Source: Acidobacteriota bacterium
GTDB lineage: Bacteria; Acidobacteriota; Vicinamibacteria; Vicinamibacterales; UBA8438
DNA length: 64,000 nucleotides
NCBI GenBank assembly: GCA_026708265.1
Contig: JAPOVI010000174.1
Location: 1 to 64,000 of the forward strand
Direction: 5' to 3'
Numbering within the stretch: position 1 is the stretch's first letter; each line of letters starts with the position of its first letter. A model generated the notes under the pieces. It did not search any database. It saw nothing but the letters and a program-made list of their open reading frames with translations, and had not been told where the DNA came from. Shown one piece after another: positions 12,350 through 62,937 of this stretch. Position numbers and translations under genes: made by a program.

Positions 12350-12426
12350 TGGTAGCGGGGGGGGGATTTGAACCCCCGACCTTTGGGTTATGAGCCCAAT
12401 GAGCTACCAGGCTGCTCCACCCCGCG
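12350..12426 (-). tRNA. Initiator tRNA-Met (CAU)
   Basis: 77 nt on the minus strand with a complete cloverleaf and encoded CCA. Diagnostic initiator features are visible: position 1 is C and cannot pair with position 72 (U), the anticodon stem carries three consecutive G-C pairs (GGG/CCC) next to the loop CTCATAA, and the T-loop reads GGTTCAAATCC. The anticodon is CAT. It lies downstream of the FtsB-like gene on the same strand. Confidence 0.97.
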
Positions 12427-34434: not shown

Positions 34435-35553
34435 TCAGCTCCTGGCCCGCCGGTAGAAGGGCATGCGGACGATGCGCGCCTGCGCCCGCCGGCCTCGTAT
34501 CTCGACGGCAATCCCGGTGTCGACGGCGCTCGCCGCGGGCGGGAGGTACGCCATGCCGATGGCCTTGCCGAGCGACGGCGCCCACGTCCCGCTCGTGACC
34601 CGCCCGACGCGCTCGCCGTCGGCGTAGACGTCGTACCCCGCGCGGGCGATGCCCGGGTCGAGCATCTCGAAGCCGACGAGGCGCCGCTCGACGCCCGTCG
34701 CGCGCTGGGCGGCGAGGGCCTCGCGGCCCGTGAACTCTCCCTTGTCCCACGCGACGATCCACCCGAGCCCCGCCTCGAGGAGCGTCGTCGTCTCGTCTAT
34801 GTCCTGGCCGTGCAGGCGCATCGACGCCTCGAGGCGCAGCGTGTCCCGGGCCCCGAGGCCGGCCGGCCGCAACCCGGCGGGCGCGCCGGCCTGGAGCAGC
34901 GCCGTCCACACGGCCTCGGCCACCTGGGGAGCGACGAACAGCTCGAAGCCGTCCTCGCCGGTGTAGCCGGTGCGGGAGATCGTCGCGCGCACGCCGGCCA
35001 CCTCGCCGTTCGCGAAGGTGTAGTAGCGGACCGTGTCGAGCTCGACCGCGGTCAGCGCCTGCAGGATCTCCCGCGAACGCGGCCCCTGGAGGGCCAACAG
35101 CGCGTAGCGCCGGCTCGTATCCACGACCACCGCGTCGCCCGCCCCCTCGAGTGCGGACGTGATCCAGTCCCGGGCCCTGAGCGCATTGGTTGCGTTGACC
35201 ACGAGCAGGAAGTGCTCCGGGGCGAGGCGGTAGACCAGCAGGTCGTCGACCGGCGTGCCGGCCGGCGTCGTCAGGGCCGAGTACTGTGCCTGACCGACGT
35301 CGAGCCGCCCCGCGTCGTTGCAGGTGATCCGCTGCACCGCGGCCAGCGCGTCGCGGCCCGCGATCTCGATCTCGCCCATGTGGCTGACGTCGAAGAGACC
35401 GGCGGCGGTGCGCACGGCGCGATGCTCGTCGCCAATGCCGGTGTACTGCACCGGCATCTCCCATCCGCCGAACGTCGTCATGCGGGCGCCGAGCGCGCGG
35501 TGCCGGGCGTGCAGCGGGGTTGTCCTGGGGGCGGCGGACGGAGCTTGCGTCAT
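34435..35553 (-). CDS. gcvT: Aminomethyltransferase (glycine cleavage T protein)
   Basis: 372 residues from the ATG at 35553; a TTG further out (35574) is less likely. The folate-binding T-protein is marked by TTPLHARHRALGARMTTFGGWEMPVQY, FDVSHMGEIEI, RYALLALQGPRS, ISRTGYTGEDGFELFV and ASMRLHGQDIDETTTLLEAGLGW. It releases ammonia and forms 5,10-methylene-THF from the H-protein intermediate. First gene of the operon, with a promoter-like sequence just upstream. Confidence 0.97.
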   Translation of the reverse strand: MTQAPSAAPRTTPLHARHRALGARMTTFGGWEMPVQYTGIGDEHRAVRTAAGLFDVSHMGEIEIAGRDALAAVQRITCNDAGRLDVGQAQYSALTTPAGTPVDDLLVYRLAPEHFLLVVNATNALRARDWITSALEGAGDAVVVDTSRRYALLALQGPRSREILQALTAVELDTVRYYTFANGEVAGVRATISRTGYTGEDGFELFVAPQVAEAVWTALLQAGAPAGLRPAGLGARDTLRLEASMRLHGQDIDETTTLLEAGLGWIVAWDKGEFTGREALAAQRATGVERRLVGFEMLDPGIARAGYDVYADGERVGRVTSGTWAPSLGKAIGMAYLPPAASAVDTGIAVEIRGRRAQARIVRMPFYRRARS

Positions 35554-35574
35554 GGCGGCGCGGCGTGGATCCAA

Positions 35575-41744: not shown

Positions 41745-44639
<2,895 letters not shown>

Positions 44640-59196: not shown

Positions 59197-60157
59197 GCGG
59201 TCCGGGGCGTCCCTGGCGCCCGCGCAGCATCTCGCGCAGGCGCGGCTCGACGTCGCGTCCGAGGGCTGACCGCACGACGTTGTCGGAGCGCCGGAGACGG
59301 GCGAGCGCGGCCGGATAGCTGTCGCCGGTGGCGTGCATCACGATGGCGGCCTTGACGTTCCAGCGCGCCCGGCGCAACAGGCGCTCGGGGTCCTCGCCCT
59401 CGAGCCCGGTGACGATGGCGATGATCCGGCGGGCTCGGTCGCGCGCCTTCTCGTTGTTGGCCTTCACGTCGACCATCAGGTTGCCGTAGGTCTTGCCGAT
59501 GCGCACCATGGCGATGGTGGTCAGCATGTTCAGGACCATCTTGGTGGCCGTTCCGGCCTTCAGCCGCGTCGAGCCGGCGATGACCTCGGGCCCCACGGCC
59601 GGGGCGATGACGACGTCGACGAACGTCTGCAGCTCGGTCCCCGGCCAGCAGGTCACGAAGACGACTCGAGAACCTCCGCTCCGGGCGCGGGTGAGCGCCC
59701 CCCGTACGAACCGGGTCATCCCGCTCGCGGACACGCCGATGAGCACGTCCCGGCGCGTCGGTCGGAGGCGGGCGACGGCGCGGCTGCCTTCCTCGTAGCG
59801 GTCCTCGACTCCCTCCTTCGGATCGAAGAAGGCCGCCCGCCCGCCGGGCATGATCGCCTGCACCTGCTTCGGGGGCGTGCTGAACGTGGTGATCATCTCT
59901 GCGGCCTCGAGCACGCCGAGGCGGCCGCTCGTGCCCGCTCCGACGAGGATCACCCGGCCGCCCCGCCGCAGGGCGCCCGTCAGCAGCTCGACCGCGGTGG
60001 AGATCCGGGACCGCTCGCGCTGGACCGCGGCTACGACCTTGCGGTCTTCGCCGAGCATGAGCCCGACGAGATCTTCCGTCGACGCCCGATCCATCGCGAG
60101 CGAGGACGGGTTGATCGCCTCCGTCGGGAGGTCCTTCCACTTCGACGGCGTAGGCAT
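59189..60157 (-). CDS. murQ: N-acetylmuramic acid 6-phosphate etherase
   Basis: 322 residues from the ATG at 60157, preceded by CCGGAG. TEAINPSSLAMDRASTEDLVGLML is the family N-terminus; the SIS domain shows LVGAGTSGRLGVLEAAEM and GVSASGMTRFVRGAL, and EVIAGSTRLKAGTATKMVLNML and KTYGNLMVDVKANNEKA are signature stretches. It splits the lactyl ether of MurNAc 6-phosphate in peptidoglycan recycling. The upstream AT-rich TTATATATTG (about 60198-60207) can hold a -10 box for it. It is divergent from hom. Confidence 0.95.
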   Translation of the reverse strand: MPTPSKWKDLPTEAINPSSLAMDRASTEDLVGLMLGEDRKVVAAVQRERSRISTAVELLTGALRRGGRVILVGAGTSGRLGVLEAAEMITTFSTPPKQVQAIMPGGRAAFFDPKEGVEDRYEEGSRAVARLRPTRRDVLIGVSASGMTRFVRGALTRARSGGSRVVFVTCWPGTELQTFVDVVIAPAVGPEVIAGSTRLKAGTATKMVLNMLTTIAMVRIGKTYGNLMVDVKANNEKARDRARRIIAIVTGLEGEDPERLLRRARWNVKAAIVMHATGDSYPAALARLRRSDNVVRSALGRDVEPRLREMLRGRQGRPGPHA

Positions 60158-60178: not shown

Positions 60179-60208
60179 TTGACTTGGTTCGAACGCGCAA
60201 TATATAAC
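60179..60208 (+). promoter_or_regulatory. Sigma-70-like promoter of hom-thrC
   Basis: TTGACT (60179-60184) and TATAAC (60203-60208) are 18 bp apart; TATATA at 60201-60206 gives 16 bp. This is the most consensus-like promoter in the window and points toward hom. Transcription would begin near 60215, giving a leader of about 200 nt. Confidence 0.5.
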
Positions 60209-60214
60209 TATTCC

Positions 60215-60354
60215 TACTGCGTACATGCGTTCCGGGCCGATCGCTGAGGCAGCGCAGGGCGGTCACTCGTCGCCTGGTCACGATGCGTCGGTCGGCGTGT
60301 CCGACCCTGGCCGGAGGCGGGTGCGGTAGCCGGCGCGAGTCGAGCGACTCTCAC
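60215..60354 (+). promoter_or_regulatory. Structured leader upstream of hom, candidate attenuator or riboswitch
   Basis: The stretch between the promoter and the terminator has several short hairpins, for example CGCTG/CAGCG near 60242-60254, GTCGG/CCGAC near 60291-60305 and GAGTC/GACTC near 60337-60350. The small frames inside it encode no run of Thr, Ile or Met. I could not match it to a known riboswitch class. Confidence 0.4.
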
Positions 60355-60392
60355 GGGCCATCATCTGCCGTCGGATGATGGCCCTTTTCTTT
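60355..60392 (+). terminator. Intrinsic terminator just before hom
   Basis: An 11-bp perfect stem, GGGCCATCATC (60355-60365) with GATGATGGCCC (60374-60384), an 8-nt loop, then TTTTCTTT. It ends 23 nt before the TTG start of hom and points along hom. Lying between the hom promoter and hom, it is best explained as an attenuator. Confidence 0.85.
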
Positions 60393-60415
60393 GGCAGACG
60401 GATCGGGACAGGCTC

Positions 60416-61684
60416 TTGCTCAAGGTCGCCCTCGTGGGGTTCGGCACGGTCGGGCAGTCCGTGGCTCGCATCCTGTGCGCGCGGCCCGCGGCCGGGTTGG
60501 TGCTCACCCATATCGCCAATCGCCGCGTGGAGCGGAAGCGGGTCGGCTGGGTGCCTCCGGACGTGATCTGGACCGACGACTTCGAGCAGGTTGTGAGTTC
60601 CGACGCCGACGTCGTGGTGGAGCTCATCGGGGGCGTCGACCCGGCCGCCGAATGGATTCGCCGTGCGCTCGCGGCGGGAAAGTCGGTGGTCACCGCGAAC
60701 AAGCAGGTCATCGCGCAGTGCGGGGAAGGGCTGCTGGCTCTGGCCCGCGAACAGCGGCGCCACCTGCTGTTCGAGGCGGCCGTGGCCGGGGGGATCCCTG
60801 TCGTTCGCGGTTTGCGGGAGGGTCTTGCGGGCGACCGGCTGGTCCGGGTCGAGGGCGTGCTCAACGGCACGTGCAACTACATCCTGACGCGCATGGCGGA
60901 TGCCCAGGTGTCCTTTGCGGCCGGTCTCTCGGAGGCCCAGGAGCTCGGCTACGCGGAGGCGGACCCGAGCGCCGACCTCGACGGCGCGGACGCGCGCGCC
61001 AAGCTTGCCATCCTCGCGCTGGTGGGCCTGCGCCGACGAATCGACGTCGAGGCCGTGCCGCTCGCCTCGATTCGGGAGATCGATCCGATCGACTTCGTCT
61101 ACGCACGGCGCCTGGGATGCACCATTCGACAGGTGGCGCGGGCGGAGCTGCTCCCGGACGAGCGGCTGCTCGCCTTCGTCCGACCGGCGCTGGTGCCGCT
61201 CACCTCCAACCTCGCCCGAATCGAGGGGAACCAGAACACCGTGGTCGTCGAGGGCGCGTTCGGCGGAGAGGCATCGTTCTCCGGAGCCGGCGCGGGAGGC
61301 GGTCCGACGGCCGTCTCGGTCGTGTCGGACCTCGAGGCGATCGCGCGAGCGGACGAGGCACGGCACGCGGGATGGCCGACCCCATCGTCCGCCGAGGCGG
61401 TCGAGCGCGAGTTCGAGGCCCCGCACTACGTCCGGTTCATCGTCGCCGACCGTCCCGGCATCATCGCATCTCTCGCCGGCGTCTTCTCGCGCCACGGCGT
61501 CAACGTCGATGCGGTGCTGCAGGAGCCCGGATGGTCGAAGTCGGAGTTGCCCTTCGTCGTCACGCTCGAGCGGTGCGGCTCGGCCGTGGTGAGCGACGCC
61601 CTCACCGAGATCGGGTCGTTCGACTTCCACGCGCGGCGTCCCGTCTGGATGCCGATCCTGGCCAGCGGGAGAGGCCCCTCATGA
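60416..61684 (+). CDS. hom: Homoserine dehydrogenase
   Basis: 422 residues from a TTG at 60416. The NAD(P)-binding start LKVALVGFGTVGQSVARIL, VVVELIGGVDPAAEWIRRAL, TANKQVIAQ, the catalytic segment FEAAVAGGIPVVRGLREGL and VLNGTCNYILTRM, YAEADPSADLDGADARAKLAILA are typical. The C-terminal ACT domain (YVRFIVADRPGIIASLAGVFSRHGVNVDAVLQ) binds threonine for feedback control. It reduces aspartate semialdehyde to homoserine. A promoter and terminator upstream suggest attenuation; thrC overlaps by 4 bp. Confidence 0.96.
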   Translation: MLKVALVGFGTVGQSVARILCARPAAGLVLTHIANRRVERKRVGWVPPDVIWTDDFEQVVSSDADVVVELIGGVDPAAEWIRRALAAGKSVVTANKQVIAQCGEGLLALAREQRRHLLFEAAVAGGIPVVRGLREGLAGDRLVRVEGVLNGTCNYILTRMADAQVSFAAGLSEAQELGYAEADPSADLDGADARAKLAILALVGLRRRIDVEAVPLASIREIDPIDFVYARRLGCTIRQVARAELLPDERLLAFVRPALVPLTSNLARIEGNQNTVVVEGAFGGEASFSGAGAGGGPTAVSVVSDLEAIARADEARHAGWPTPSSAEAVEREFEAPHYVRFIVADRPGIIASLAGVFSRHGVNVDAVLQEPGWSKSELPFVVTLERCGSAVVSDALTEIGSFDFHARRPVWMPILASGRGPS

Positions 61685-62937
61685 GCTACGTCACGGGGCT
61701 CGAATGCTCGATGTGCCGTGCGCCGTTTCCGCCCCGCGCGCTGTATGTGTGCGATCAGTGCCTCGGCCCGCTCGAGGTGACCTACGACCGGGACCGCATC
61801 CGCCGCACGCTCACGCGCGAGCTCATCGAGTCGCGGCCGGCGAGCCTGTGGCGCTATCGCGAGTTGCTGCCTATCGACGGCGATCCCCGGACCGGCCTCG
61901 AATCGGGTTTCACGCCCCTGCTGCGGGCCGACCGCCTCGGGGCCGAGCTCGGGCTTCGCGAGCTGTGGGTGAAGGACGATTCCGTCAACCATCCGACGCT
62001 GTCGTACAAGGACCGCGTGGTGCCCGTCGCCGCGACCCGCGCCGTCGAGCTGGGCTTCCGCATGTTCGGCTGCGCCTCGACCGGCAACCTGGCGAACAGC
62101 GTGGCCGCCCACGCGGCGCGTCTGGGCCTGTCCTGCTACGTCTTCATCCCCCGCACCCTCGAGCCGGGAAAGATTCGAGCCTCCGCCGTCCTCGGTTCCG
62201 AGGTGGTCGCCATCGACGGAACGTACGACGACGTCAATCGCCTGTGCACGCAGGTAGGGGATCGCTACGGCTGGGGCTTCGCCAACATCAACCTCCGCAG
62301 CTACTACGCCGAGGGCGCCAAGACCTGCGGCTTCGAGATCGTCGAGCAGCTCGGATGGCGCTTTCCGCGCCACGTCGTCTCGCCGGTCGCGGGCGGGACG
62401 CTCCTGCCGCGCATCGGTCGCGGCTTCGACGAGCTGCGGGACGCGGGACTCGTCGACGGCGAGTTGCCGCGCATCCACGCCGCGCAGGCCGCGGGTTGCG
62501 CGCCGGTCATCCAGGCGCTGGACGCGGGCCTCGACCATCCGGAGCCCGTACGGCCGAACACGATCGCCAAGTCGATCGCGATCGGCAATCCTGCGGACGG
62601 CTACTACGTGCTCCGCACGGTGCGAGAGACAGGCGGGTCGGGCGCGGCTGCCACGGACGAGGAGATCCTCGACGGCATCCGCCTGCTGGCTCGCACCGAA
62701 GGGGTGTTCACGGAGCCGGCGGGCGGGACCACGGTCGCGGTCACCCGGAAGCTCGTGCGGGACGGAGTCATCGGCGCCGACGAGGCGACCGTCATCTGCA
62801 TCACGGGCAGCGGCTACAAGACCTCGGACGCGATTGCCGACAGCCTTCCTCCGCCGGCCCAGCTCGGGCGCTCCCTGTCCGAGATGGACGCGTTCGTGGC
62901 GGAACGGGACCGGCGCCACCAGGAGGTGGGCGGCTGA
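61681..62937 (+). CDS. thrC: Threonine synthase
   Basis: 418 residues. A small N-terminal zinc-ribbon-like segment (CSMCRAPFPPRALYVCDQC) precedes the PLP fold-type II core: WVKDDSVNHPTLSYKDRVV with the PLP lysine, CASTGNLANSVAAHAARLGL, VSPVAGGTLLPRIGRGFDEL and ICITGSGYKT. It turns O-phosphohomoserine into threonine. It is translationally coupled to hom; the homoserine kinase gene is not in the window. Confidence 0.95.
   Translation: MSYVTGLECSMCRAPFPPRALYVCDQCLGPLEVTYDRDRIRRTLTRELIESRPASLWRYRELLPIDGDPRTGLESGFTPLLRADRLGAELGLRELWVKDDSVNHPTLSYKDRVVPVAATRAVELGFRMFGCASTGNLANSVAAHAARLGLSCYVFIPRTLEPGKIRASAVLGSEVVAIDGTYDDVNRLCTQVGDRYGWGFANINLRSYYAEGAKTCGFEIVEQLGWRFPRHVVSPVAGGTLLPRIGRGFDELRDAGLVDGELPRIHAAQAAGCAPVIQALDAGLDHPEPVRPNTIAKSIAIGNPADGYYVLRTVRETGGSGAAATDEEILDGIRLLARTEGVFTEPAGGTTVAVTRKLVRDGVIGADEATVICITGSGYKTSDAIADSLPPPAQLGRSLSEMDAFVAERDRRHQEVGG

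Follow-up and report, generated by a model that had tools for sequence, protein, structure and literature searches.

The enterobacterial thr operon is controlled by a ribosome-mediated threonine/isoleucine attenuator with the leader peptide ThrL. According to PMC2965389, almost none of the attenuators in Acidobacteria had been assigned a function. A search of the literature returned no paper joining attenuation, leader peptides and Acidobacteria or Acidobacteriota; an earlier prediction may exist in Lopatovskaya et al. (2010), a work on attenuation in bacteria that is cited in PMC4833913. The present analysis concerns a leader upstream of hom in an Acidobacteriota genome, situated in a 64,000-nt stretch of DNA that was analysed as a whole and is referred to below as the window. 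Like the thr operon attenuator, the system in the window would control the homoserine/threonine pathway.

Organization of the hom promoter, leader and terminator

The hom gene (60416–61684, forward strand, TTG start) encodes a homoserine dehydrogenase with an ACT domain as judged from Pfam, and is followed on the same strand by a gene for a PALP-family enzyme (61681–62937; family from Pfam, limit from the end of the ORF), which by position is thrC. A sigma-70-like promoter was recognized in the sequence upstream of hom (60179–60208, forward strand), comprising TTGACT at 60179–60184, an 18-nt spacer and TATAAC at 60203–60208. The leader RNA would extend on the forward strand from a predicted start at about 60215 to the end of the U-tract at 60392, and includes a terminator hairpin (60355–60384, forward strand) with a 4-nt loop, the 5' arm of which is designated region 3. 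The U-tract, TTTTCTTT (60385–60392, forward strand), ends 23 nt before the TTG at 60416. The promoter, a leader of ~140 nt and a terminator at this distance from hom had all been described in the original prediction and are all present in the sequence; the terminator stem has 13 pairs as opposed to the 11 first counted. A single copy of the terminator sequence is present in the window, and none was encountered in 100 shuffles with up to three mismatches allowed.

A mechanical scan called no promoter at this position because its rule demands a T at the last position of the -10 box. Each of the 11 aligned hom leaders, three from the window's genus and eight from sister genera, has a TTGAC box together with a TATA-like box, and the promoter (60179–60208) is identical over its full length in the alignment of three species of the window's genus. 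The neighbouring gene on the other side, which encodes a murQ-like SIS-domain protein (Pfam) and starts near 60157, is divergent, and hom should therefore be transcribed from the promoter at 60179 through the terminator.

Threonine-rich leader peptides upstream of hom in sister genera

When 60 related genomes were searched at the protein level, 58 gave hom-like matches, and 30 loci were taken further. A terminator with the core CCATCAYC was located upstream of hom in 23 of the 30 oriented loci, the seven loci that have no such core being left out of both the threonine ORF count and the leader alignment. Each of the 20 core-bearing leaders outside the window's genus contains an ATG-initiated ORF of 21–29 codons, ending 29–37 nt before the core, at UGA in 18 cases and at UAG in two. 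Threonine accounts for 89 of the 500 codons in these ORFs, the most threonine-rich having been chosen where several fitted, as against 17/480 and 6/480 when the same bases are read in the two alternative frames and a threonine share of 3–6% within hom itself. Examples of the predicted peptides include MVTTKTTPTTPTMAPAVRGLRG (L010), MTENMTTPVVTTTMAPAPRGHSG (L019) and, from another family, MTIPATTTIGLGPTPGRGAGVM (L026).

The stop codon of these ORFs sits in a conserved strand designated region 2, typically GGGUGAUGUAGC. This strand is able to pair with the terminator 5' arm, GGCCAUCAUCC, in competition with the terminator 3' arm. Across nine sister genera, each represented by a single leader, this antiterminator pairing is stronger than in shuffled sequences (combined p 7e-6), with p values for single leaders ranging from 0.011 to 0.37. 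Within the alignment of 23 leaders, the antiterminator columns are 92% paired with no double changes and do not rise above shuffles, because those columns hardly vary; the terminator is 96.4% paired, and of the five measures applied to it two lie above shuffles. Since every one of the core-bearing sister leaders has a threonine-rich ORF that ends in the antiterminator strand, the ancestral device is, on the evidence of these alignments, classic ribosome-mediated threonine attenuation. A ribosome stalled at the threonine codons would permit the antiterminator to form, and a ribosome reaching the stop codon would cover region 2, with the result that the terminator forms.

Termination before hom in the window is likewise likely to be conditional, as was originally proposed. 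This is well supported because the leader and terminator are conserved in relatives, an outcome on which the proposal had been made to depend, because the 23-nt gap between U-tract and start codon is too small to house a promoter, and because the sister leaders carry an antiterminator.

Breadth of the attenuator family

Among the 60 relatives, 33 contain the pattern GCCATCAYC..GGNTGATGG..TTTT, and the reversed pattern, used as a control, was absent from all of them. Applied to 193 genomes of the class, a covariance model prepared from the hom leaders matched 97, which with a single exception belong to the window's order. Of 396 genomes sampled across the phylum, 44 gave matches, and 22 of the 44 are from other classes. 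The window leader itself scores 72.1 bits (E 1.8e-16) against this model, having been part of the training set. Twenty loci were examined from the phylum-level matches, and in most of them an ORF ends at the expected position, although at least two (L188 and L189) look like chance; these loci, and those examined before other genes, were picked among the stronger model matches as opposed to at random.

The composition of the leader peptide fits the downstream operon, with threonine at 31 of 100 codons before aspartokinase, valine at 98 of 526 before ilvD and isoleucine at 21 of 90 before ilvB. These codon pools are restricted to loci followed by a gene that fits one of five sequence motifs, and they take in two threonine-less ORFs from the window's genus. 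NCBIfam names were checked for ten of the downstream genes. Two hom leaders of family f11 have methionine-rich in place of threonine-rich peptides (MGMAMRMRSMAAMSMRRRAGG in L150, and L160; genomes G047 and G057), which is a switch of control codon. The open frame of hom at these two loci is about 347 aa and seems too short for an ACT domain.

Several further associations were noted. Prephenate dehydratase genes (L057, L138, L141, L147 and L157) are preceded by attenuators with peptides that are valine-rich (34 of 142 codons) and not phenylalanine-rich (7 of 142), and genes for LysR-type regulators (L056, L060, L149 and L153) are also preceded by this type of attenuator, with valine/leucine-rich peptides. 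Similar attenuators with isoleucine-rich peptides were observed in other classes of the phylum (L171, L173, L174, L176–L178, L182 and L183), with a UGA, UAG or UAA stop codon in region 2. The genes that follow them carry YDTTLRDGTQ-type motifs, and are judged from this motif to be leuA/cimA-like.

Probable loss of the leader peptide

The window-type leader precedes hom in three species of the window's genus (L001–L003), whereas a fourth (G003) has only a distant hom match (E 3.7e-21) that is uninformative with regard to the leader. Alignment reveals that GGUGAUG of the sister leaders has become GGUGCGG or GGUGCAG in the genus, with loss of the UGA stop, and no threonine-rich ORF was found in the leaders of the three species, from which the threonine codons and a conserved start codon are also missing. 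The window's genus is nested inside threonine-peptide lineages in the hom tree, with support of only 82/81 at the joining fork, and for this reason the peptide has probably been lost from a leader that once encoded one. The earlier statement that no threonine leader peptide is seen accordingly holds for the window genome, but was misleading as to the origin of the leader, given the threonine-rich ORFs in 20 of 20 core-bearing relatives outside the genus. An ilvD attenuator is found across the family, but none was seen before this gene in any of the genus's four species (G000–G003; L088–L091).

Window-type leaders were found in no more than the three species among 28 genomes of the family, apart from one weak 50-nt hit in G014, and no further example was found in the 60 relatives, where other hits were short or confined to the terminator, or in viral contigs. 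A scan of genome contigs identified five loci, two of which are on the same contigs as L002 and L003.

Region 2 of the window leader (GGCGGGTGCGGTAGCC; 60316–60331, forward strand), the putative antiterminator strand, was placed by alignment as the homologue of GCGGGTGATGTAGCC in the sister genera. Eleven of the 13 homologous pairs between regions 2 and 3 are retained in the genus, as read from the alignment, and the duplex between the two regions in the window leader has an energy of -26.2. The window antiterminator can additionally be lengthened toward the loop side by pairing of GGCGGGUG with CAUCUGCC. In the window's genus this pairing does not clearly exceed chance: one comparison with shuffles gave p values of 0.19 and 0.32, and in another 99 of 1000 shuffles were as strong.

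Conservation and structure of the window leader

From the -35 box through the U-tract, 209 of 216 positions are identical in L001 and L003, as against 149 of 240 (62%) fourfold sites in hom. Of all 216-nt segments in the 34 kb that align between the window and the L003 contig, this block scores highest (0.968, compared with a mean of 0.852 and standard deviation of 0.055). The next most conserved segments of the same length lie at 43902–44117 and 35345–35560 of the window (0.958). The 5' part of the leader is 93–96% identical within the genus, versus 69–74% in pairs from other genera (fourfold identity about 0.61–0.65), and conservation drops both upstream of the -35 box and in the spacer between the U-tract and hom. 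The peptide is absent from the window leader, although nothing in the surrounding sequence equals this leader in conservation. An antisense GTG-initiated ORF (60215–60345, minus strand) shows mostly synonymous changes among the three species.

The description of the leader as hairpin-rich was not borne out, its folding energy being no better than chance (z -1.13, with 27 of 200 shuffles folding equally well), and sub-domains of the leader were similarly unremarkable against shuffles (z from -1.32 to +1.93). A candidate region 1 (CACTCGTC; 60264–60271, forward strand), weakly defined from the minimum-energy fold, may pair with region 2. The helix formed by regions 1 and 2 appeared attractive as the closing stem of an aptamer, and was rejected in that role, with 340 of 1000 shuffles as strong.

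The comparison with Rfam that had been suggested as a check yielded no family for the leader at the gathering threshold or at E values up to 10, except for two terminator-like chance hits, and identity with a T-box or a known riboswitch was rejected given the lack of a covariance-model match at E up to 10. Searches with 13 hom loci returned only tRNAs and sub-threshold hits; a tRNA gene at 12353–12426 (minus strand) is the only Rfam match in the window. Alignment of leaders, a further check proposed, did uncover an antiterminator in the sister leaders, but no covariation within the window's genus, where three near-identical sequences cannot show any.

Possible sensors in the window's genus

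These observations are somewhat in favour of the hom attenuator, which probably also serves thrC, having descended from a ribosome-mediated threonine attenuator in which the ribosome as sensor was replaced by direct sensing by RNA or protein. Termination in the window's genus would remain conditional, with the choice between the terminator and the retained antiterminator made by a small molecule, a protein or a tRNA that attaches directly to the leader RNA. The likeliest substitute for the ribosome would be direct sensing by RNA or protein. Binding of a metabolite or protein to the leader, which was the original suggestion, may occur and gains weight from the extreme conservation of what appears to be non-coding sequence, although ligand, structure and covariation lend it no support. 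A narrower version, in which the threonine attenuator has turned into a riboswitch-like or protein-binding RNA that directly senses a product of the homoserine pathway, with terminator and antiterminator kept, can be advanced only tentatively.

It is unlikely, albeit conceivable, that control is still exerted by the ribosome, via translation of a 34-codon ORF (60225–60329, forward strand) that is the sole remaining ORF to end in region 2, with either new control codons, such as glycine or serine, or a read-out of general translation. This ORF crosses region 1 and terminates at a UAG kept from GGUGAUGUAGC, and control amino acids do shift between families, as in the methionine-rich leaders before hom in f11. 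However, the UAG, although kept in region 2, is in the frame of an ORF that is itself doubtful: it contains no threonine codons, its ATG is ACG in one of the three species, and every change among the three is non-synonymous. Moreover, its start lacks Shine-Dalgarno pairing (+1.4, compared with -0.2 to -9.9 in the sisters) and is situated about 9 nt from the predicted 5' end of the RNA, and the leader ORFs of the sisters do not hold their nucleotides so tightly. No ORF ending in region 2 is retained in all three species; a second leader ORF, which begins with ATG in each of them, extends into the terminator and includes one threonine codon.

The trp leader RNA of Sinorhizobium, rnTrpL, provides a precedent for a leader RNA that acts in trans, and production of a small RNA by termination within a leader is mentioned in PMC9373788. 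The frozen sequence could feasibly be explained in the same manner, with the terminated leader acting as a small RNA elsewhere and leakage through the terminator sufficing for hom, and the conservation is limited by promoter and terminator, as in a stand-alone RNA gene. Nevertheless, a trans-acting RNA would not alone account for the terminator having been kept before hom, no second copy was found in the relatives searched, and this explanation is considered quite improbable.

Decay of the attenuator, such that the peptide is gone and the terminator merely cuts hom expression by a fixed amount, would be in keeping with the loss of the threonine codons and the UGA stop, and with the failure to see the ilvD attenuator in the same genus. 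A relic should drift, however, and decay is very doubtful for a leader that surpasses every other 216-nt segment of the 34 kb in conservation. It is barely credible that the conservation reflects a protein encoded by the 46-codon GTG ORF antisense to the leader, since, despite six of its changed codons being synonymous and two not, and 7 of 11 differences falling in one codon phase (p 0.039 for a given phase, uncorrected for the number of phases tried), neither a start signal nor a promoter was seen, nor any homologue, and the conservation extends beyond it to the hom promoter and terminator.

The window's genus and its sisters constitute a natural experiment, in which the same terminator and gene are accompanied by a peptide sensor in the sisters and by none in the genus. 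If the leader does bind a ligand, a ribosome-based sensor would be shown to be replaceable by RNA sensing with the switch kept, and, if the sensor has indeed been exchanged, the exchange has been caught between sister genera. The attenuator class in Acidobacteria can, in addition, now be given a likely function.

Comparison with known systems

Leaders with a competing antiterminator and terminator before amino acid genes are also typical of T-box riboswitches, but no Rfam T-box match was obtained for the window leader at E up to 10 and neither a specifier loop nor a UGGN bulge was recognized by eye. The window leader has in common with termination-type metabolite riboswitches a conserved 5' domain, apparently non-coding, which might compete with an antiterminator; it differs from them in that it has no Rfam match and a fold not above chance, with neither ligand nor covariation found among three sequences. 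The enterobacterial thr operon attenuator belongs to a different phylum and differs in RNA sequence, the present system having no Rfam match and, in the window's genus, no peptide. Conversely, the sister leaders resemble it, with a threonine-rich peptide, a stop codon in region 2 and mutually exclusive antiterminator and terminator structures, and leaders of family f2 before aspartokinase (e.g. MLIVPVRPTMTRTTTITTGDSSGG) resemble ThrL. From the features by which a leader-peptide attenuator is recognized, the window's genus has the intrinsic terminator between promoter and gene, and lacks the ORF rich in the regulatory amino acid. Judged as a peptide sensor the window system therefore falls outside the group, yet it would work like an amino acid attenuator and probably descends from one.
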